Assembly: GCA_001275005.1 (NCBI GenBank)
Contig: JWZX01002202.1
Span: forward strand, 1-40,468
Origin: Chrysochromulina tobinii
Lineage: Eukaryota; Haptophyta; Prymnesiales; Chrysochromulinaceae
Direction of reading: 5' to 3'
DNA length: 40,468 nucleotides
Position numbers and translations under genes: made by a program
In this document: positions 21,520 to 36,994 of the stretch, piece after piece
Numbering within the stretch: the stretch's first letter is position 1
How the letters are laid out: each line of letters starts with the position of its first letter
Notes under the pieces: generated by a model
Told to the model about the DNA's origin: nothing
The model's database searches: none
Seen by the model: the letters and a program-made list of their open reading frames with translations, nothing else

Positions 21520-22080
21520 GTCTCGCCGGGATAGCCGAGGTTGATCGCAGTGAGCCTCGCGAGGGCTATGCCTCCGGGCGTGTGGCGTTGTGCGGGGGAA
21601 TGTAAGGGGGAATGTGGCAAGCGTGCCCTCCGTGTGAGGACGCAGCACTCGCGCGGGAGGGGCGACACGTCACGTGATCGGGCGAGCGCCGAGACAGCTC
21701 CGTGGTGTGCTATGCAAGACGCGGGGCCGAATGACAGCGCCAGTCATCGACGCGGCTCGCGGGCCGGGAAGGGGGCTGAGCCTGTGGCGCGCCACGGGTT
21801 CGCGGGTATTGGAATATACGACGGAATCGATAAGATGATGCTGGTCCTAAATGCTAAATTAGTAGGGAGTGAAGAGTCAACTCAAGTCTATAAACTGTAA
21901 CTTATAACCACACAGAAACGCCAACCGTTGGATGTGACTTGACTTGACTTATATTCATATTCCTAATTACCGGTAGGCCAGTCCTTTGCTGCGTGAAGAT
22001 CGCAAGCAAGCGCACATGCTCCGGGCTTGTGGGTGTGTGCCTGGCCGAGAGGGCCCTGAAACGGAACGGGAACGGTGAAG
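21520..22080. other. intergenic region without a supported gene
   Basis: About 560 bp. It includes a TGACTTGACTTGACTT stretch near 21935-21950, the same CAAGT/ACTTG unit seen in introns elsewhere in the window. No coding evidence. Confidence 0.45.
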
Positions 22081-23451
22081 ATGGCACGCGATACGTCCTG
22101 CGGCGTCGAGGATGGCGACGACACCGATGACGGCAACAGCAGCTACAAGGGCGTGGCAGATGACGACGATGACGACGAGCCGCAGCATGAGGGATTTCTT
22201 TCCCGCGTGGCTCGGATCGCAGCACCATCGCGAATGCTGCGCCGGGGCGAAGTCGCAGGCGCCCTCGGCGATCTCGGCACTTTCCTACCGGACGTGGTCG
22301 CGCTTTCCAAAGGCGGCGTCACGCTTCTTCCCGAACCCGCGGCGATGGTCTTCTTCAGCGGCCTGTGGTCTGCTTGGGCGGGCGTGCTCTTCGACCTGCC
22401 GATGCCCATCCAGCCGATGCACGCGGTGGTGGCAGTCGCATTGACCGAGGGGCTCTCGTACCCTCAGATGGTCGCCTCGACGGTGTGGCTCGGCGGCGCG
22501 TTCCTCGTCCTCGGCAGCCTCGGGCTCATCAGCTGGTGCCAGCGCGTCATCCCGCTCTCCGTCGTGCGCGGCCTGCAGCTGGGCCTCGGCCTCAAGGTCT
22601 TCGCGACCGGCGTGACCCTTGCGCTTACAAGTTGCAAGGAGTGGCGCACCTCCACCGAGAGCGCCCTGGAGCTCGGACTGCTCGTCATCTCCGCCGCGCT
22701 CGCCGCCCTCTTGTATGGCGATCGGCTGCGCCCTGCGTCTCTCGTCCTCTTTGTCCTCGGACTCGTGAGAGCCGTGGTCGTGCTTGCCCGGCATGGCGCG
22801 CCAAGCGTCGAATGGGGCGTGTACCTGCCGCTGGCGCCGCTCAACCCATTGGAGATCAGCGCGGACGATTGGATGCAAGCGCTCTACCGCGCAGCCCTCC
22901 CTCAGCTCCCGGTCACCCTCCTCAATGCGGTGATCTCGACGGCAAGGCTCGCGTCTGACCTGTACCCAGCGAGAGGGCGTCGCCGTGCCGCCCACCGCAA
23001 GGCGCGAGGGGAGGGCGCATGCTGCACCGATCCGGTGGTGGATCAAGGGCCTGCAACAGTCACGACGATCGCGATGAGCATCGGTCTGATGAACTTGAGT
23101 ACCGGCTGGTTGGGTCACTTTCCTAGTTGCCACGGCTGCGGCGGCCTCGCCGCTCAGCATCTCTTCGGTGCGCGCACGGGCTCTTCCATGATGCTGATGG
23201 GCTTTGTCAAGATGGCGCTCGCACTCGCGCTCGGCCCCTCACTCGCCACGGTGCTCGCCGCCTTCCCCAACGCGGTCCTCGGCGTGCTGCTCGCGCTCTC
23301 TGGCGTTGAGCTCGCAATATCCTGCCGCGACATGTCCGAGAAGCGCGACACGGCGGTGATGCTCATCGGCGCGGGCCTCGTGCTGCGCGCGGGCACCGGG
23401 CCCGCGTTCGTTGTGTCGCTGCTCGCGGCCGCGGGGCTGAAGAGATCTTGA
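22081..23451 (+). CDS. MOT1-family molybdate transporter
   Basis: Intronless, 456 residues from the ATG at 22081. MOT1 proteins are SulP-related high-affinity molybdate importers of plants and algae that feed molybdenum cofactor synthesis (for example nitrate reductase). Family signatures are clear. Residues 60-75 read GALGDLGTFLPDVVAL, followed by LFDLPMPIQPMHAVVAVAL, then LPQLPVTLLNAVISTARLASDL. The second signature near 353-369 is GGLAAQHLFGARTGSS, followed by FPNAVLGVLLALSGVELA. About ten hydrophobic segments are visible. The N-terminus is acidic (DDDDDDEPQHEG) and a basic cytosolic-like loop (RGRRRAAHRKARGEG) follows the LASDLYP motif. There is no STAS domain, as expected for MOT1. Plasma-membrane versus internal membrane cannot be told from sequence. 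Confidence 0.93.
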   Translation: MARDTSCGVEDGDDTDDGNSSYKGVADDDDDDEPQHEGFLSRVARIAAPSRMLRRGEVAGALGDLGTFLPDVVALSKGGVTLLPEPAAMVFFSGLWSAWAGVLFDLPMPIQPMHAVVAVALTEGLSYPQMVASTVWLGGAFLVLGSLGLISWCQRVIPLSVVRGLQLGLGLKVFATGVTLALTSCKEWRTSTESALELGLLVISAALAALLYGDRLRPASLVLFVLGLVRAVVVLARHGAPSVEWGVYLPLAPLNPLEISADDWMQALYRAALPQLPVTLLNAVISTARLASDLYPARGRRRAAHRKARGEGACCTDPVVDQGPATVTTIAMSIGLMNLSTGWLGHFPSCHGCGGLAAQHLFGARTGSSMMLMGFVKMALALALGPSLATVLAAFPNAVLGVLLALSGVELAISCRDMSEKRDTAVMLIGAGLVLRAGTGPAFVVSLLAAAGLKRS

Positions 23452-24155: not shown

Positions 24156-27100
24156 TCACGCGCCCATCGTTGCCGCCTTTTGTGGCGACGGCTCAGCGGC
24201 GCCCGCATCCTTTTGCGAGGACCAGTGCGACACGATCACGCGTCGGTGCGGCGCGTCGGCGGCGAACCTGTCGTCGAACAGTCCGATTACCTGCGCCATC
24301 AGTGGCAACCGGAGGTCATCAGTGGCAATCGGAGGTCGTTAGTGGCGAACGCAGGTCCTCGGTGGCAGTCGGAGGTCATCAGTGGGGATCTCACCTGCGT
24401 CAGCTCGAGCTCGCGCACCGCACGGGCCAGCTGAGCTTCATGCTGGAACCGATAGGTCCCCTCGACGAGCTCGCCCCATATTTGGGAGGTCTCCTGCTGG
24501 AGAGTCTTGGGTTGCTCATCGAGCAGCGCCGATACGGCGCTCTGGTACTCCGCGAAGCTCGAGGTTGACAGCTCGGCGAGCGGGCCGCTGCGGAATTCGC
24601 GCATCCAGCTCTCAATCTCGGCCTCGAGCTGCGCCGGAGGTTGCACGCTCGATTGGATGAGGACGGTGAGACCCCGTGACGTGCCCACCGAGCGCACGGA
24701 GCACTGCACAACGTACCCGAGCTGCTTTTGGGTGCGCAGCACGTGGAATGCATGCTTCGAGGCCACCTGCGCGAGCACAAGCAGCTGGGCCTCCTCTTGC
24801 AAGCTCAGCGTCGTGCCCACCTGCATGAAGAGCTCGATGGCCGAATTACTCTCGGCCGCGTTTACAGCGACGCCGCTCAAGCGTGTGGGTTGTCCGCCCA
24901 ACTCGACGCTCGTCGGCAGCAGCGCCGTGGACGGGAGCGGCGCGCAGTCGGGTGGGAGCGGCGTGGAGCCGGCGAGAGCTTCCCGCCACTGGCGTCCGAG
25001 GGTGCGTGCATGCATCGGGAGCAGGTTGCCATGCACGAACATCTCGACGAAATTGGCCTGCAGCATCTCTCGGAGATGCTCGGCGACCGCATCTACGGTG
25101 CACGAGTCCGAGAGCGCGAACGCCTGCCCAACACGGGATGTAATCACGCAGCATCAACGAGTCGCTCATCAGGGGTTCATCAGGGGCTCATCAGTGGCTC
25201 ATCAGTGGCTCATCAGGGGCATCAGGGGCTCGTCAGGGGCTCATCAGGGGCCCCGATCGATCGCTCGGCTCACCAGCGCGGCCTCATGATGCGTCGCAGG
25301 CACCGTCAAGTGATGCGTGATCGCGTACTGCGCGTGCCACAAGGGTCGCTCCTGCTGACGGTTACGCAAGGAGCGCATTAGGATCTCCCGCAGGACCTCG
25401 AAGCGCTCGGCTTTGGGTTGGAACGCGGCGAGCGCGCGCGCGAGATCGAGCGAGAGCTGCGGCAGCCGCTGCGAGTAGCCGCTCGCCTGCACCAGCAGCC
25501 CTCCCTGGTGTGAGCTTACTGACCAGCTGAGCCCGGCGAGCGCGCACGGTGCGAGCGTCGTGGTGAGCGCATCCACGAGCAGGTCAGTACCGAGCTGCGA
25601 CAGCACCGCGGCCCGCGCGCTCGCGGCGCCGGCCTGCGACACGAGCGGCGTGCGCACGAGCGTGAGGATGGAGGCGCGCGGTCGCCCGAAACGGCCACTG
25701 TCGAGATGCCACACTCGCACGCCCTCAGCGGCTTCGTCAAAGTCACTCGTGAGTCGGGAAGGCGAGCGTCCCCAGAAGCCCTCCGCCGCCTCGCGCGTCG
25801 GCTGCTCAGCACAAAGAGGTCCAACCAGCGCTCATCAGAGGATATCAGAGGTCGCAAGAGGTCACCAGCGGTCATCAGCGGCCCTCAGCGGTCACAAGAG
25901 GTCACAAGAGGTCATCGGAGGTCATCGGAGGTCATCGGAGGTCATCGGAGGTCATCGGAGGTCATCGGAGGTCATCGGAGGTCATCGGAGGTCATCAAGC
26001 TCACCTGTTCAAGCATGGAGAGGTCCGATGGCACGTATGGATTCGGCGGGGGCAGCCGTAGCTCTGGATGGGGCGTCGCCATCGCACACGCTCGGCGGAG
26101 GGACTCTGGCAGCGGCTGGAGCTCATATGGGGTCGCGTACCACCGTTCAGTCGAGGGAGTCTGCAGCGGCGAGGGCGAGACCAACAGCGTGAGCATCTCG
26201 GACGGGTCATTCAAATCTGTGAGGAGACTATGCAGCTGCGCGGCAGTGCTGCCCGCATCTGCCGGGTCACCCATCCCGTGCGGCCACTCAAACGGCAAAG
26301 AGAGCACGCGCTCAGGACGACGCTCGTACAAGTGCAGTCGACCGGCGAGCGCCTTGACGAGCGGCACCTGATGAAGGACGCACTCCGAAAGGCCGTCAGA
26401 CGCCATCGGAAGCTATCAGAAGCCCTCGGAGGTCATCGGGGGTCCTCAAAAGAGGCCATCAGAGGCCATCGGAGGACATCGGAGGACATCGGAGGCCATC
26501 GCACCGGCTCCGATTGCTCCGCGTACGCGAACGCGATCCGCGACATGGCCGCACGCTCGTCGAAGAGGTATTGCGGGATGCCGGGGCCGCCCGGGGCGGC
26601 CTGCTTGGTGAGCATGCGCACATAGCCGAACACGAGCTCCATCGCGTCTCCGTATTTGGCAAGTCCTTCGGGAGTTAAAGTGAGCGTGATCCCGTACAGC
26701 GTGGCATCGCTCATCCCGTACAATGGTCCGCAAGAGAGCGAGGTCGCGAGCGGCGGGTCGAGCCGTTGGGTGAGCAGCCACGCCAGCCCCCCTTCGCCCT
26801 CGAAGCTGAGCATCGACGAGAGCAGCCGCATCGCCTTGCTCTCTGCGAACTCGGCCTCCGGAGGGACTTCCCACAGCAACCGCAGCAGGCGCGTCTCGCG
26901 AACAGGCGTCGCACGCAGCAGGCCGCCACGCTGCTTGTCCGAGAAGGGGCCGCGTGGGAGCGCTGTGTTGGGCGTGTCTGCGACGCCTGCGACCACCGCC
27001 GCCGTCTCGGCCACCACCGCCGCCATCGCCGCATCCTGTACAGCAGCAGCCAGCTCGTCGGCGACGCCCGCGTCGTCGGCGACGTTCGGCGCCGTGCTGG

Positions 27101-27310
27101 GCGCGACCACTCCGCCACGCAGCCCGCCAAAGTGGCGCACCACGCACGCCTCGAGCTCGTCGAGGGAGATCGCGCCGAGCACGCACAAGTGCATCGCCTC
27201 GGCTCGGTAATGGGTTTGGTAGAATCGCCGAACTGCCTCGTGGGGCGCCTCAAGCCTGCTGCTGCTGCTGACGGAGTCGGCTACACCGCCGTCCTCTGCA
27301 TGGTGGGCAC

Positions 27311-27354
<44 letters not shown>

Positions 27355-27371
27355 GGTGAGGCAACGGCTTG

Positions 27372-27404
<33 letters not shown>

Positions 27405-28145
27405 CCCTATGGTCTCGATCTCGGTCTCGATCTCGATCTCGCCGCCCTCGCCCGCGAGGGTCTCGAGGTTACCCGTAGAGAACTTGCGAAAGGGATGGCC
27501 ATCTGCGCTCGTGGTCTTGAGGAGCTGAAAGAGGCGACGGGAGTCATCCTGCAGGTTGCGCCGGTACTCCGAGTCCACAGCGCGCATCTCACGCCGTGTC
27601 GAGTCCTCCCGAAGCAACGGGCACGAGAAGAAGGCGCTGAACCTCTCGAGCGCGGCGGGAAGCTGCGACGGGTGGACTGAGAAGTGGAAGCCGGTGGACT
27701 CCATGCCGGTGAATGCGTTGGACGAGCCGCCGTGCTTCTGCAGGAACGCTTTGAACGCACCCTCGTCCGGCTCCACTTCCGTGCCAAGGAACATCATGTG
27801 CTCGGTCAGATGTGCGAGGCCTGCCCGGTCCAGCGGGTCGCTAAAATGGCCCGCACGCACCTCGATGGCTGCGGCGGCGCGATCGGCTTCCGCGTCGTGC
27901 ACGAGCAGCGCACGCAGCCCGTTGGCGAGCGTCACGTGCCGATAAGTGCGCGTGTCCAGTGGCGGCGCGCGCACACTCTCCGTGCGCTCGACGATCAGCT
28001 GCTCAATATCGACGGCGATCGCCGTCGATGTGGTGTGGCGGCTGCCGCCGCGGATGTGTGGCAGCCGTTGCAGGCTCGGTGTCACCGCGTACGAGCGTAC
28101 GAGCGGTGAGGTGAGGCCGACGAGGCTCACGAGCAGACGGCGCAT
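24156..28145 (-). CDS. M16A insulysin-like metalloprotease, five exons
   Basis: Proposed exons (minus): 26505-28145, 26005-26367, 25274-25801, 24395-25123 and 24156-24290. Every junction is phase 0 and every exon a multiple of three, giving 1131 residues. Start ATG 28145 opens with a signal-like peptide (MRRLLVSLVGLTSPLVRSYA); an upstream ATG at 28373 is less likely. The inverted zinc motif is intact (HLTEH, His112/Glu115/His116), and Glu193 in AVDSEYRRNLQ is 77 residues on, the spacing of insulysin. Other landmarks are GGSSNAFTGMESTGFHF, WYATPYELQPLPE, FMQVGTT, RTQKQLGYVVQ, ELVEGTYRFQHE and the last exon (VIGLFDDRFAADAP). Insulysins degrade short peptides, including cleaved targeting peptides in organelles. 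Exon 1 carries a large insertion with poly-Ser and acidic repeats (about residues 250-320). All four introns are tandem repeats. Confidence 0.93.
24291..24394 (-). repeat. protease intron 4: 20-bp tandem units
   Basis: On the coding strand, units of CCACTGATGACCTCCGATTG type repeat at ~20 bp (two 10-bp half units) through the whole 104-bp intron, between GTGAGA donor and GGCGCAG acceptor. Confidence 0.88.
25124..25273 (-). repeat. protease intron 3: 11-bp tandem units
   Basis: Coding-strand units CCCCTGATGAG / CCACTGATGAG repeat about eight times (about 25165-25252) in a 150-bp intron with GTGAGC donor and GGGCAG acceptor. Confidence 0.88.
25802..26004 (-). repeat. protease intron 2: eight perfect 10-bp copies plus degenerate flank
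   Basis: Plus-strand GTCATCGGAG (coding-strand CTCCGATGAC) occurs eight times without change at 25911-25990; degenerate 10-bp units continue to about 25830. The intron is 203 bp with donor CAG|GTGAGC and acceptor GAGCAG. Confidence 0.93.
26368..26504 (-). repeat. protease intron 1: 10-bp tandem units
   Basis: Coding-strand CTCCGATGTC and CTCTGATGGC units fill much of the 137-bp intron (about 26410-26500). The CTCTGATGGC unit is the same 10-mer found in intron 3 of the PH gene on the opposite strand. Confidence 0.85.
27312..27353 (-). repeat. trinucleotide repeat coding poly-Ser
   Basis: 14 consecutive CTG triplets on the plus strand, read as AGC (Ser) in protease exon 1. Confidence 0.9.
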
Positions 28146-28962
28146 CCGCGCTCGCGTCCGAATGCGCGTTTGCAGCTCCGCGCGAGCGCGCCCGTCCTCT
28201 TCGCTGACCAATTTTCCAGTGGAACGCCCAATTGGGAACGCCTCGCTGCAAGCTCTGTGGAACGAAGCCTGTACGTGCCGTGTACGGTCTAGGGGGCGTG
28301 TCCCTGGCGTAATCTGTCTCACCTGACACATCGGGCGAAGCAACGGCCCGCACTGCATTATAATTCTTCCCATGTAAACACGACTGCGTTGAGATAGGAG
28401 AGTGTGTGAATCCAGAAAGAATACCTTCCCCTACCCCTTTGGGTCAAATGGCGCCAAGTTTCGTCTCTTTCTACGGCACCGGGCTGACGATCAGGCTGAC
28501 GATACCCGGCAGCAGCACGGCGCGCAAACCGCGAATCGCGTTGAATCGCGATCGCGCGACCGCGAACGTTCAACGTACCGCGGCCGGACACACGCGGCAC
28601 GGCACCTCCACCGCGACCTTGTGGCTGCGAACCTCTCCTCACAACCTCTATCTCTCGTGGCACCGCTCGCATGTACGCGTCGCCGTCCGGGTCTCGCGCG
28701 TTCTCAGTTCCGTCGCATCTCGGGTTTTCGCCTCTCGCCGTTCCGTCGGTTCTCGCGCCGCGCGGCGAAGTGTACACTGTACACGCTCGCGTCGGCCCGG
28801 GCGGAATGATTTACCGATAAGTGGTTCTTGAACGGGAGAGCGAAGACCCGCTCCGTTTTCTCGTCCGCGGTCCCACAGGGCGACGAGGGCAAGGCCGCCT
28901 GGGCGGGCGCGGGCGCTCTGGGATGATGTTGATGATCATGTATGCATGCAACTGCACAGCTC
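28146..28962. other. intergenic region without a supported gene
   Basis: About 820 bp between the protease start and the zinc-finger stop. The protease frame stays open to an ATG at 28373, so part may be 5' UTR or a longer N-terminus. Remaining frames look compositional. Confidence 0.4.
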
Positions 28963-31530: not shown

Positions 31531-31862
31531 GTGTGCCTTTTTTTAAGCGGATTTGGTGGGTACCGCGCCACGTTCGTAGAAAGCATTGTATGCACAGGCG
31601 ATCTTGACGCGGGAGACAGCTGTCGCACTGCGCCCGCCCCGCCCCGCTATCGATCTACCAAAAACACAATTGCTAAAACACACTACAACGGCAGCGCCCA
31701 CGCCGCAGAGAGCCCAGAGACAGCGCGAACAGGTGGGTTCTTATGCCTCGCACGTTGACAATACGCAACAGGCGTCACCGGACCGGCACCGCCCGGCGCC
31801 CCGCCCGGTCGACGTTCACAGCACTGGTTCAAAAACGTTCACACGTTCAACCTCGAGAAGCA
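31531..31862. other. intergenic region
   Basis: About 330 bp between the GLTP-like stop and the methyltransferase start. The methyltransferase frame is open to an ATG at 31743, but the added Arg/Thr-rich residues look non-coding or like a targeting extension. Confidence 0.4.
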
Positions 31863-32516
31863 ATGCGACACTCAAAATTGCCGTCACTACCGAGCGGCGC
31901 AAATCTCCACGTTGTGACGCCTGGCTGGGCCGGTAATCTTGGTACAGGCGGCCGAGTGTGGCCTGGTGCAGCCGCAATGTGTCAGCTGCTCGTATCCATG
32001 CAACCAGAACTGCAAGGGAGTAGCGTCCTCGAGCTCGGTGCAGGTGCTGGGGCCGTCGGCATTTTTGCCGCCGCGCTCGGTGCCTCCCGAGTATTGCTGA
32101 CTGATGGTGGTGAGGGCGAGACTGCGCTGGCAAAACTGAACGCGCGAAGGCACTCGCACCTCTACCGCGGCGCCACGGTCGATGCTCACAAATACCTGTG
32201 GGGCGAGCCTTTGGCGGGACTGATGGCTGGTGACAAGCACTTTGACTTCGTGCTGGGTGCGGACATCACATACTCACTGCCGTTGCTACCGCCACTGTGC
32301 GACACTCTCGCTGAGCTCAGAGAGCGCCACAGAGAGCGCCACAGTAGCAGTGAGGGTCCAATCATGCTCCTCTCCCACCAGGTGAACCGCCACGGAGAGC
32401 GCGAGCTGCCGCGCATTCTGTCTCTGGTTGCGGCTGGGCGCGGGTTGGACGTCCGCCCTTTGGATGCAGTTGCGAGCGTCTCAATACCCAATGTGGTGTT
32501 CTATTCGGTCACATGA
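31863..32516 (+). CDS. class I SAM methyltransferase, Methyltransf_16 / METTL21-like
   Basis: Intronless, 217 residues from ATG 31863. Markers are TGGRVWPGAAAMCQLL (the WPGA/W-x-A motif before motif I), motif I VLELGAGAGAVGIFAAALGA at about 55-73, the acidic VLLTDGGEG after strand 2, and FDFVLGADITYS at about 127-138 (post-motif II). Length and order fit the small protein-lysine methyltransferases, which modify translation factors and chaperones. Substrate cannot be assigned. A short duplication (RERHRERH) lies in the loop after the active-site strand. An ATG at 31743 would add 40 Arg/Thr-rich residues that could be a targeting sequence; I prefer the shorter form. Confidence 0.83.
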   Translation: MRHSKLPSLPSGANLHVVTPGWAGNLGTGGRVWPGAAAMCQLLVSMQPELQGSSVLELGAGAGAVGIFAAALGASRVLLTDGGEGETALAKLNARRHSHLYRGATVDAHKYLWGEPLAGLMAGDKHFDFVLGADITYSLPLLPPLCDTLAELRERHRERHSSSEGPIMLLSHQVNRHGERELPRILSLVAAGRGLDVRPLDAVASVSIPNVVFYSVT

Positions 32517-32970: not shown

Positions 32971-35186
32971 TCAGACGACGTCGCCGGCAAAGTCCTTGGT
33001 GATCGAGATCGAGCCCGCCTTGCCCTCGCGCATCAGCCGCTTCTTCTTCGCGTAGTAGGCGGCATGCAAGTCACCCTGGCTCCGCGCGTTGAACGTGAGG
33101 TAAGCTGAGCGGCGCCAGGTGTTCGTGTGGTTCGGAGCGGAGCGGTGGGGCAGGTACGAGTCGAACAGCACCTGCGAGGGAGCCATCAGTGGCCATCAGC
33201 GGCCATCAGTGGCTCAGCGATCATCTGTGGCCATCACCATGTCGCCCGGCACGGCGAGAACAGGCTCGAAGACCATCGCAGCCTCGACCTCGGGCGAGAT
33301 CACGCCATGCTGATTGGGCAAGATGCCCTCGCTGTGTCGGCCAGGTGCGATCTCAAGCGGTCCATTCTCGAGGGTCGCCGAGTCGACGGCAATCGAGACG
33401 GAGATATGTCGAGATGCGAGCTCGTCCGTCGCGTACGCCGTCGCATCCTGGAGCAAGTCAAGTCAAGTCAAGTCAAGTCAAGTCAAGTCAAGTCATCCTG
33501 GAACAGATCGAAGCCGGCCCATCAGAGAGACAATCAGATGCAATCCATGGCAATCAAGCGACTGACAGGCACCTGATGCAGAAGGAAGCCGCCGCCGCCC
33601 GGACCCTTGTAGTTCACCTTATCCTTGAAGAGCACCGCCGGCTCTCCAAATGCTTGGCTCACACAGTCCTGCACGATGCCGAAGCACAGCTCTGCCCACG
33701 CGGGCTTGTGATAGCAAAAGTTCTCGACGCGGCAGATGCGAACCGCGCCGTCGTGGGCGGATCGCTCGTGGTGTACCATCCAAGGGTGCTCGCCCGACTC
33801 GGCGCTGTGGCCCGTTGGCAACGAAGTGAGATCGTCTGCCATGGCCGAGAGCCGCGCAGCCACCTGATGAGGGACGCCATCAGATGATGCAATCGGGCGC
33901 ACTCAGTCACGTCGGGGGAGACCAAGAGGCGATCCTGAGTAATCTCAGCTCATCAGTCGGGGGAGACCAAGAGGCGATCCTGAGTAATCTCAGCTCATCA
34001 GTCGGGGGAGACCAAGAGGCGATCCTGAGTAATCTCAGCTCATCAGTCGGGGGAGACCAAGAGGCGATCCTGAGTAATCTCAGCTCATCACTGCTCATCG
34101 GTGGCCATCACCTCGACAGGGAGGATGCCACGCAGTGCGAGCGATCCATCTTTAGCCCACGCGCGCCGCTGCTCGTCGGAGAGGACGTAACTGTGCGCGT
34201 ACGCACTCATCGGGTACCGCTCCCCTCCCCTCCCCGCCGCTGCCGTGCCGCCGCCGCCACCTGCTGCTCCGCTCTCGAGACGCTCGGCGATGCCCTTCAA
34301 TAGTACGGCCTTGAGCTCGTCTCGGAACGCCGTGATGAGCAGGTTGGTGGGTGGTGTCCTCTTGGCGGCCTCGTCGTACCTGATGAGGGGCACGTTCACA
34401 CGCACTCAGTGGCTATGAGGCGCAATCAGGCGCAATCAGGCGCAATCAGGCGCAATCAGACGCATTGGTCATCGTACGTCCGCATGCGAAGCACAGTTGG
34501 CCACAACGGCTCCGCCTCCACGGCGAGGCACCTGCGCAAGAGGACCCGATAGGAGCCGCCATCATCGTCAGAGCGAGGGCGTGCGCAGGAGCGCGCGTTC
34601 TATCACTGTGAACTGCGTACTCGGCCTCTGTGAACGGTCCGCCCTGATGGCGTAGCGTCGTCTTGCTAGCGTCGCTCAGCTGAAGGTAGTAGTCGGGCTC
34701 GCGCGCGCACCGGTAGCGCTTGGCGTTGACGTGCTGGTGCACCAGGTACGCCACCGACTCGGGGAAGCCCAGCGCGCCGAGGAAGCGCGCGCCGACGCCC
34801 TCGTGGTCAACCGTGCCGCAGCCGTCCATCGCTGGCTCGAAGCCAGCCTCAAAGCCACACAGGTGGCCGATGTCGTGCAGCAGGCAGGCGACCTGCGCTT
34901 CGGCACTCTCGCACGCCTCGCGCGCGACCAAGAAGGCCTGAACCGAGTGCTCTGTGGTCGAGACCGGCTCGCCGATGTAGTCGGCGTCGCCATGCTTTTC
35001 GTAGATCGAGAAGATGCGAGCGAGCGAGGTCTCGGCGATGTGCTCAACGAGCCCCAAGTCGACACGGCTGGCGACCGCGGTTGGCACGGCTCTGGCGCTG
35101 CCGGCAGCCATGGCGGCACTGGCCCTGGTCCTCCGGTGTGCGAGAGAGAGTGGATTCAGAAGCCGACGGTACTTGCCGATAAACAT
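32971..35186 (-). CDS. PhnZ-type HD oxygenase fused to PhyH/PhnY-type 2OG dioxygenase, six exons
   Basis: Proposed exons (minus): 34621-35186, 34478-34531, 34112-34379, 33573-33863, 33238-33447 and 32971-33171; 529 residues. Residues 1-25 are Arg/Ser/Leu-rich, possibly a mitochondrial presequence. Residues about 42-213 are a PhnZ-family HD domain: Tyr70 and Glu73 (DYIGEPVS), His80, His104-Asp105 (LLHDIGHL), His128 (VDHEG), His152 (QHVNAKRY) and Asp209 (RTYDEAAK), with SDASKTTLRHQGGP. Within the blocks, spacing matches bacterial PhnZ. After a Gly-rich linker, residues about 275-529 are PhyH-like: LSDEQRRAWAKDG, FGEPAVLFKDKVNYKGPGGG, His392-Gln-Asp394, PGDMVLFDSYLPHRSAPN with His472, and Arg483/484 (WRRSAYLTFN). 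In bacteria PhnY hydroxylates 2-aminoethylphosphonate and PhnZ cleaves its C-P bond. The fusion would do both; substrate is inference. Confidence 0.88.
33172..33237 (-). repeat. fusion-gene intron 5: 10-bp CTGATGGCC units
   Basis: 66-bp intron almost wholly made of coding-strand CTGATGGCCG / CTGATGGCCA units; donor ATG|GTGATG, acceptor CCTCGCAG. Confidence 0.88.
33448..33572 (-). repeat. fusion-gene intron 4: 5-bp tandem repeat, 8 copies
   Basis: Plus-strand CAAGT repeated eight times at 33454-33493 (coding-strand ACTTG), abutting the acceptor CTCCAG. Upstream in the intron are CTGATTG and CTGATGGG. The join restores the His-Gln-Asp iron motif. Confidence 0.9.
33864..34111 (-). repeat. fusion-gene intron 3: four perfect 45-bp copies
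   Basis: Units start at 33911, 33956, 34001 and 34046; all four 45-bp copies (33911-34090) are identical. Each carries coding-strand CTGATGAGCTGAG. The intron is 248 bp, GAG|GTGATG donor, CATCAG acceptor. Confidence 0.95.
34380..34477 (-). repeat. fusion-gene intron 2: four 10-bp copies
   Basis: Plus-strand CGCAATCAGG (coding-strand CCTGATTGCG) four times at 34421-34460, last copy with one change. Phase-2 intron, donor C|GTACGA, acceptor CATCAG. Confidence 0.9.
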
Positions 35187-35627: not shown

Positions 35628-36959
35628 TCACTCGCAACGCCGCCTTCGGAGCCGGCGCGTCCAACTCTCCTCGGTGCAGCACTTGGAGCACTCACAGTCA
35701 AAGCCGTATGCGCGCAGGCTCGCGCGTCGCTTGCGGAATCCCGAGCGCTCGTTCTCGTCAATGTACGAGATCGTGATCTCCTCGCCGCACGCGATCGCGC
35801 GACGAGCGAGCAGCGTCGCCTCCGACGTGACCCCAAGCCAGTTCACCTCCGCATTGGGGCGGCAGTCGTGGTTCAAGCATGCGATTCGAGGGTACAAGGC
35901 GGTGGAGAGCGCCGCGGGGATAGAGCTCGGAAGCATCTCGAGCAGGGCATCGATCACAGCGCTCGCCTCCGTGCTTGTGTACTCGTTCTCCGTGATCACG
36001 CCTGGATCTGCCTCCTCCTCTTCCTCCTCCTCCTCCTCCTCCTCCTCCTCCTCCTCCTCCTCCTCCTCTTCACTCGCCAGCCGGCGCACATGGCGCAGCG
36101 CAGAGCTCCACTCGTCCACTGGATGTGAGAGCGCGACGCAGATCGCATTACGCCGCGCCGCGCCCAGCAGGCCACCCCACACCTCCAAATCTAGCCACGC
36201 GCGCACTCCCGCACCGCCGCCACCACGCGCACGTACACCACCACGCGCCTCCGCAGCCTCCGTCGCGCATAACAACAACCTGAGGGACTCTTCGGCAGCC
36301 TGCTTCGCCACGCGGCCATCTGCCCTTGCTTGGAGCGCACCCTCATCCGAGATCGCCCACCAGGGCGCACGGCAGAAGGCATCGTACGGCTCGCGCGCCG
36401 CATCGAGGCACTTCTTGCACAACGAGGGCGCGGCGTTGGCGCCCGATCGAGCCACGCAGCAGCGCCGCTCGCGAGCATGTTGGTGAGCGCGGGCGTGTAT
36501 GGAGGCCACGATGCGTGCGCCGAAGAGAAAGACCTCGTACGTTCGCAATGCATGCTTCTCGAAGCGTTGGATCGCCGACTTAGCCAACGCTGGGCACAGC
36601 AACCTGTGTGCCTCAGCCTCCTCCTCGCATTCGGCGCTGCAGAAACAAGCGGCGCAGCTGTAGCGGCATGGTACATTGCTAGCCAGCTCGTCCTCGACGA
36701 GATGTTCCGATGCTGCCGGCAGCGATCGCCTCTTGCTAAGGTGCCGAAGCTGCAGGGCCATCGTGCCGACCGGCCGGCAACACTGCTCGCAGGCGACGAG
36801 CACCGCGAGGGTCTCGGGCAAAGCCATGGAGACGAGCGGGTGATCAACGAGCAGCTCCTCGCCAGCTGCGATGTCGCGAGCCGCGAAGGCTGCGCGGCCT
36901 TTTCTCGGACACCGGCGGAAGTCGAGAGGAGAAGACAGACCCTGAGACAGACACTGCAT
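35628..36959 (-). CDS. SET-domain protein with MYND-like finger (SMYD type)
   Basis: 443 residues in the main exon if the ATG at 36959 is used. The SET domain is split as in SMYD proteins. Its N-terminal half (GRAAFAARDIAAGEELL) is at about 21-37. A MYND-like zinc cluster at about 57-123 (CEQC, then CAACFCSAEC and HRLLC) interrupts it. The catalytic half is at about 362-401 (CLNHDCRPNAEV, GEEITISYID), followed by post-SET cysteines (CECSKC) near 421-426. An insertion holds a run of about 20 Glu. SMYD proteins methylate lysines on histones or cytosolic proteins. Just upstream (36961-36994) lies a CAAGT-type array with CTGATT, like the intron in the neighbouring fusion gene, and ATGCAG resembles an acceptor. 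A first exon may therefore exist, possibly starting at the ATG at 37087. Confidence 0.8.
   Translation of the reverse strand: MQCLSQGLSSPLDFRRCPRKGRAAFAARDIAAGEELLVDHPLVSMALPETLAVLVACEQCCRPVGTMALQLRHLSKRRSLPAASEHLVEDELASNVPCRYSCAACFCSAECEEEAEAHRLLCPALAKSAIQRFEKHALRTYEVFLFGARIVASIHARAHQHARERRCCVARSGANAAPSLCKKCLDAAREPYDAFCRAPWWAISDEGALQARADGRVAKQAAEESLRLLLCATEAAEARGGVRARGGGGAGVRAWLDLEVWGGLLGAARRNAICVALSHPVDEWSSALRHVRRLASEEEEEEEEEEEEEEEEEEEEADPGVITENEYTSTEASAVIDALLEMLPSSIPAALSTALYPRIACLNHDCRPNAEVNWLGVTSEATLLARRAIACGEEITISYIDENERSGFRKRRASLRAYGFDCECSKCCTEESWTRRLRRRRCE
36014..36071 (-). repeat. trinucleotide repeat coding poly-Glu
   Basis: CTC/CTT triplets on the plus strand read as a run of about 20 Glu codons inside the SET protein. 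Confidence 0.92.
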
Positions 36960-36960
36960 A

Positions 36961-36994
36961 GTCAAGTCACAAATCAGTCAAGTCAAGTCAAGTC
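36961..36994 (-). repeat. CAAGT tandem array upstream of SET exon (probable intron)
   Basis: GTCAAGTCAC...CAGTCAAGTCAAGTCAAGTC. Same 5-bp unit as in fusion-gene intron 4; a coding-strand CTGATTT lies in the array and an ATGCAG acceptor-like end follows it. Confidence 0.65.

Follow-up and report, generated by a model that had tools for sequence, protein, structure and literature searches.

Here we describe a gene of the haptophyte alga Chrysochromulina tobinii (GenBank assembly GCA_001275005.1) that is predicted to encode, in one polypeptide of 529 residues, a PhnZ/TmpB-type HD domain followed by a PhnY/TmpA-type 2-oxoglutarate (2OG) dioxygenase. The gene lies on the minus strand (35186-32971) of a stretch of 40,468 nucleotides, hereafter the window, which covers positions 1 to 40,468 of contig JWZX01002202.1. 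Judged from its residues, domain order, family matches and tree position and from the modelled fold of a relative, the protein probably (about 0.8) catalyses the whole two-step oxidative breakdown of a phosphonate, and its likeliest substrate is an aminophosphonate such as 2-aminoethylphosphonate (2-AEP or AEP). Phosphonates make up about a quarter of dissolved organic phosphorus and their use by eukaryotic phytoplankton is debated, according to the available part of a paper that also reports diatom growth on 2-AEP and, in that part, contains none of the terms 'phn', 'dioxygenase' and 'hydrolase' (PMC11051927). In another diatom study, incorporation into lipids was proposed in place of C-P cleavage (PMC9765203). 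With the gene described here, the alga would be able to obtain phosphate from phosphonates unaided.

Domains, active-site residues and gene structure

A Pfam scan of the protein at E 0.001 revealed HD (4.4e-8) and PhyH (4e-23) domains and nothing else, thereby confirming that the HD domain, which would act second, is N-terminal. Numbered from the ATG at 35186, the HD residues are Tyr70, Glu73, His80, His104/Asp105, His128, His152, Lys156 and Asp209, exactly as listed in the original prediction. His80, His104, Asp105, His128, His152 and Asp209 align with the metal ligands of PhnZ and TmpB (H...HD...H...H...D), and none of these was lost on splicing. The PhyH half, which had also been read beforehand as a dioxygenase with HxD, distal His and Arg, carries His392-x-Asp394, distal His472 and Arg483/Arg484, corresponding to the HxD...H triad and 2OG-binding Arg of the PhnY/TmpA type.

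Profile comparisons of the two halves, proposed at the outset as a check, gave phosphonate-oxidation families as the best scores for each. The HD half matched PhnZ (E 8.4e-33) and TmpB (E 3.8e-27) among PDB structures; its NCBIfam scores were 164.1 bits for TIGR03276 Phn-HD (cut-off 214.6), 122 for NF049941 TmpB (300) and 95.1 for NF052439 PhnZ1 (300). The best curated match of the PhyH half was NF052437, methylphosphonate hydroxylase PhnY (168.7 bits, cut-off 500). MIOX, which was compared through Pfam and PDB matches only, gave no Pfam match at E 0.001. A relative 62% identical to the window protein over 91% of the query is predicted to have the PhnZ fold, and PhnZ is 33-35% identical to this modelled relative.

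Conceptual splicing gave six exons and five GT-AG introns (89, 98, 248, 125 and 66 nt for introns 1 to 5), with the 529-residue frame running to a TGA and containing no internal stop. The six-exon model that had first been proposed was thus rebuilt, free of premature stops. The features of the gene are as follows.

34621..35186, minus strand: exon 1, 566 nt; basic acid-free N-terminus, then most of the PhnZ/TmpB-type HD domain, with HD residues Tyr70 to Lys156
34968..34979, minus strand: YxxE substrate-gating loop, Tyr70-Glu73 (YIGE), from the sequence; loop role as described in PMC8177086
34872..34877, minus strand: HD dyad His104-Asp105, predicted diiron ligands by alignment
34478..34531, minus strand: exon 2, 54 nt; HD domain stretch ahead of the last Asp ligand
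34380..34477, minus strand: intron 2, 10-bp tandem repeat, 4.7 copies
34112..34379, minus strand: exon 3, 268 nt; last HD ligand Asp209, linker and start of the PhyH domain
34373..34375, minus strand: Asp209, last predicted diiron ligand by alignment
33864..34111, minus strand: intron 3, 45-bp tandem repeat, 4.2 copies
33573..33863, minus strand: exon 4, 291 nt; PhyH domain as far as His392 of HxD
33448..33572, minus strand: intron 4, CAAGT repeated 8.4 times
33238..33447, minus strand: exon 5, 210 nt; PhyH domain, beginning at Asp394 of HxD
32971..33171, minus strand: exon 6, 201 nt; PhyH distal His472, predicted 2OG-binding Arg483/484 and stop
33145..33147, minus strand: distal His472, predicted member of the Fe(II) facial triad by alignment

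The exon junctions were compared with six relatives (P0001, P0002, P0003, P0004, P0020 and P0030) in pairwise alignments, which were free of gaps within 4 residues of the junction in 30 of 30 cases and within 12 residues in 28 of 30. Both gaps (P0003 and P0030, junction 2) sit just downstream, at the start of the linker. Tandem repeats are present in four of the five introns (window 33182-33236, 33454-33495, 33902-34090 and 34418-34464). Introns 3 and 5 begin with the same sequence, GTGATGGCCA, which occurs at these two places only within the window.

The first 25 residues of the protein include six basic and no acidic ones. Acid-free first 25 residues were found in 16 of 26 HD-PhyH proteins, the sample consisting of the window protein and every member of P0001-P0060 with an initial Met and at least 25 residues ahead of the HD domain. 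Such a basic N-terminus resembles an organelle presequence and may direct the protein to an organelle, possibly the mitochondrion.

Relatives, paralogues and genomic setting

A search with the full fusion, in which at least 7991 candidates were scored, found at least 123 relatives. Among the 120 matches listed, 105 were HD-PhyH, 10 PhyH only, 5 HD only and none PhyH-HD. The nearest of them, P0001, is identical to the window protein at 309 of 515 aligned residues. The listed HD-PhyH relatives span bolidophytes, a dictyochophyte, chlorarachniophytes, haptophytes (Calcidiscus, Prymnesium), a pelagophyte and a diatom (Cyclotella meneghiniana); further source names include Triparma, Tetraparma, Rhizochromulina, Gymnochlora, Bigelowiella, Amorphochlora and Chrysophaeum, together with one gammaproteobacterial metagenome-assembled genome (MAG). 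Most listed relatives bear no source name, and seven of the eukaryote names were verified against taxonomy. Both domains are present in one protein in entries named after MMETSP transcriptomes, P0020 (Rhizochromulina) and P0024 (Gymnochlora), which bears out the initial reading of a single-polypeptide fusion. Two clusters, of 62 and 25 sequences, contain HD pieces that match 78% of the HD query at 99% identity; therefore this or a very close species has already been sampled, perhaps including this assembly. In bacteria both domain orders are present: 12 of the best 80 genome loci (L025-L036; eleven gammaproteobacterial MAGs and one Myxococcota MAG) encode HD-PhyH in a single open reading frame (ORF), and other bacterial loci among these 80 have HD and PhyH as neighbouring genes.

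Searching the alga's own assembly (53.15 Mb, 2253 contigs) with Phn-HD gave five matches at three places, namely the window and contigs C2035 and C2000. The C2035 gene (L106, C2035:12501-19000, minus strand about 3764-1973) is a divergent paralogue with HD followed by PhyH, in which the loop before the first His is altered and shorter. The C2000 gene (L105, C2000:26001-33000, minus strand about 4285-2674), consisting of one 380-residue frame and a second exon, has PhyH followed by HD, with YDSV in place of YxxE. Thus, of the three, only the window protein keeps the YxxE loop. The C2000 protein scored 255.7 for PhnY and 163 for PhnZ1, both above the window protein, and 136 for TmpB. A search with it found 181 proteins, of which 120 were listed and 118 were new: 67 PhyH-HD, 31 HD-PhyH and 20 PhyH only. 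Named among the listed PhyH-HD proteins are Symbiodinium natans, Lotharella oceanica (partial), a Proteobacteria MAG and a Myxococcales MAG.

Trees were built for each half after shorter pieces had been dropped and rows thinned at 62% identity with named ones kept, leaving 80 of 349 (HD) and 80 of 237 (PhyH). In both, the window gene adjoins P0001 inside a clade of named algal fusions, supported at 98/98 in the HD tree (18 rows, one an HD-only piece) and 100/98 in the PhyH tree (27 rows). Most PhyH-HD proteins, including C2000, form a separate group which has bacterial members too. The few exceptions to this split by order are P0190 (Cymbomonas), P0191, P0203 and P0226, which have HD-PhyH order outside the algal clade; in P0190 an HD domain of the PhyH-HD group stands in front of PhyH, which points either to additional shuffling or to an error in the gene model. 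Support is low at many deep forks, the bootstrap of the HD tree had not converged completely and the branch leading to C2035 is long. For groups named after the tree had been seen, a single clade of algal and bacterial HD-PhyH proteins was rejected in the PhyH half (approximately unbiased test, p 0.0028, best constrained tree), and one of algal HD-PhyH with eukaryotic PhyH-HD proteins was not (p 0.229). Since the former was rejected, more than one origin of the fusion is likely.

The assembly gave 58 light-harvesting-protein matches, which support a photosynthetic eukaryote. Two light-harvesting proteins, when compared with the PDB, matched fucoxanthin, violaxanthin and other antenna chains, with no single lineage favoured. 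Synthesis of phosphonates by the alga itself was considered and rejected, as the PEP-mutase match on C1203 is closer to methylisocitrate lyase (185.9 vs 90.3 bits); turnover of home-made phosphonates is therefore without support. No phosphonate biosynthesis gene was found in the genome by one six-frame search, which can miss intron-split genes. PhnW gave weak matches only (best 47.5 bits). The best PhnX match, on C2217, was set aside as a phosphonatase-like HAD protein (TIGR03351 125.7 bits vs 81.4 for PhnX). At this locus (L108, 1755-3534, plus strand) a hydroxyacid-dehydrogenase-like frame runs into this TIGR03351-type hydrolase, and the two may form a further fusion gene.

Within the window, the gene is flanked by a SET-domain frame (35631-36965, minus strand) and a lysine-methyltransferase-like frame (31743-32513, plus strand). 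No Pfam family known to be phosphonate-related was found among the 20 window frames scanned (of 41 frames of at least 220 residues), and no Rfam RNA family was found in the window. A MOT1-type molybdate transporter is encoded at 22075-23448 on the plus strand (Pfam MFS_MOT1, 1.3e-46), and pieces of M16 (insulinase-type) peptidase, perhaps of one gene, at 24302-25147 and 26436-28373 on the minus strand.

Substrate and proposed function

Metal ligands are kept in nearly all aligned rows of every class; 13 of the 63 PhyH-HD rows without a gap at Asp209 have Glu there. Of 152 HD-PhyH rows, 138 are non-gap at the YxxE Glu and 130 of these retain it; among 68 PhyH-HD rows, 32 have Glu aligned at this position. 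The YxxE loop is described as a trait of PhnZ and TmpB, absent from MIOX, in which Glu contacts the substrate amino group and Tyr leaves the iron on substrate binding (PMC8177086). Because the loop is kept in the window protein and altered in both paralogues, we infer an aminophosphonate as substrate of the former and a different substrate for the C2000 and C2035 proteins. In the mechanism we propose, the C-terminal Fe(II)/2OG domain would hydroxylate the carbon next to phosphorus, and the (R)-1-hydroxy product would pass to the N-terminal HD domain with its mixed-valent diiron site. There, Tyr70 would leave the iron while Glu73 moves inwards and binds the amino group. O2 would break the C-P bond, releasing phosphate together with the acid derived from the substrate, which for AEP is glycine.

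A two-step oxidase for methylphosphonate or another amino-free phosphonate, yielding formate and phosphate, is an unlikely alternative. It would account for PhnY, the methylphosphonate enzyme, being the top model of the PhyH half, and the HD half does not settle the substrate, since Gimesia PhnZ is described as cleaving hydroxymethylphosphonate and (R)-1-hydroxy-2-aminoethylphosphonate alike (PMC10574752). However, the amine-contacting Glu73 is kept in the window protein, and C2000, which scores higher for PhnY and PhnZ1, has YDSV; the window HD domain scores higher for TmpB than for PhnZ1, whereas for C2000 the order is narrowly the opposite.

It is more doubtful still that one half alone works, or that both act on a non-phosphonate algal substrate. 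HD and PhyH are broad families whose fold alone does not determine the reaction; moreover, all phosphonate-family scores are under the curated cut-offs, and the single search for biosynthesis genes found none, its PEP-mutase match on C1203 fitting methylisocitrate lyase better. Against this, the halves independently indicate the same two-step pathway, the two domains are fused in two orders and are neighbouring genes in bacteria, and nearly every row retains the catalytic residues of the two halves. A gene model that wrongly merges two genes, or a pseudogene, is very improbable, as, despite the repeats in its introns, both domains are in one protein in 105 of 120 listed relatives, some from transcriptomes, the junctions align without nearby gaps, the frame has no internal stop and the metal ligands are intact.

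Several observations weigh against a two-step aminophosphonate oxidase. With every phosphonate-family NCBIfam score under its cut-off, the window protein is not filed as Phn-HD, TmpB or PhnZ1, and its top PhyH model is for methylphosphonate rather than an aminophosphonate. The PhyH half is without a close solved relative by sequence (best PDB match 6ec3, E 1.4e-9), and the HD tree joins the window's clade to neither PhnZ nor TmpB. The Bigelowiella gene model P0028 is without YxxE and the first His, while its sister P0024 (Gymnochlora) has both; we take this as a probable gene-model fault. Some named entries are partial: P0031 and P0045 are without the YxxE stretch and P0066 stops inside the PhyH half. 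The choice of an aminophosphonate draws on Glu73 and on weak score differences.

The HD-PhyH family provides a concrete, expressible candidate for phosphonate use in several algal lineages. C-P lyase makes methane from methylphosphonate, whereas an active oxidative enzyme would recover phosphate without that by-product. We tentatively suggest, at somewhat less than even odds, that algae evolved a matched set of one-piece enzymes: HD-PhyH with YxxE kept, for aminophosphonates, and PhyH-HD with YxxE lost, for methylphosphonate-like substrates. This genome has both, and with such pairs eukaryotic phytoplankton might obtain phosphorus directly from phosphonates, with no need of bacteria and no release of methane. 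The same two steps fused in both orders also form a natural test of whether fusion is of benefit through channelling of the hydroxylated intermediate.

Comparison with known systems

PhoF of the fungus Fonsecaea multimorphosa is described as a fused PhnY and PhnZ with AEP and 3-aminopropylphosphonate as substrates (PMC10574752), which contradicts the statement in the original prediction that no eukaryotic fusion of this kind had been described. Compared by description, PhoF and the window protein both join eukaryotic PhnY-type and PhnZ-type domains in one polypeptide for two-step oxidative phosphonate breakdown, predicted in the case of the window protein. PhoF is fungal, and in it the PhnY domain reportedly comes first and the HD domain last, an order opposite to that of the window protein and the same as in the C2000 gene.

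PhnY*/PhnZ of bacterium HF130_AEPn_1, which act on 2-AEP, have the same two chemistries as predicted here, and PhnZ has its ligand set and YxxE in common with the window HD domain; however, these are separate bacterial proteins. TmpA/TmpB of Leisingera caerulea are likewise separate, and serve trimethylated AEP. TmpB resembles the window HD half (E 3.8e-27) with YxxE kept, but in the HD tree it falls within the group that contains the PhyH-HD proteins and not in the window's clade. The bacterial single-ORF fusions (L025-L036) share the domain order, but one clade with the algal proteins was rejected in the PhyH half. PhnA-domain (PF03831) proteins, described in algae, are a different protein (PMC9756366). 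Among the top matches in the open-licence literature, none described an algal or bacterial fusion of this kind. The two-domain fusion as a kind is known; what is new is the HD-PhyH order, how widely it occurs among algae and the presence of a reverse-order paralogue in the same genome.
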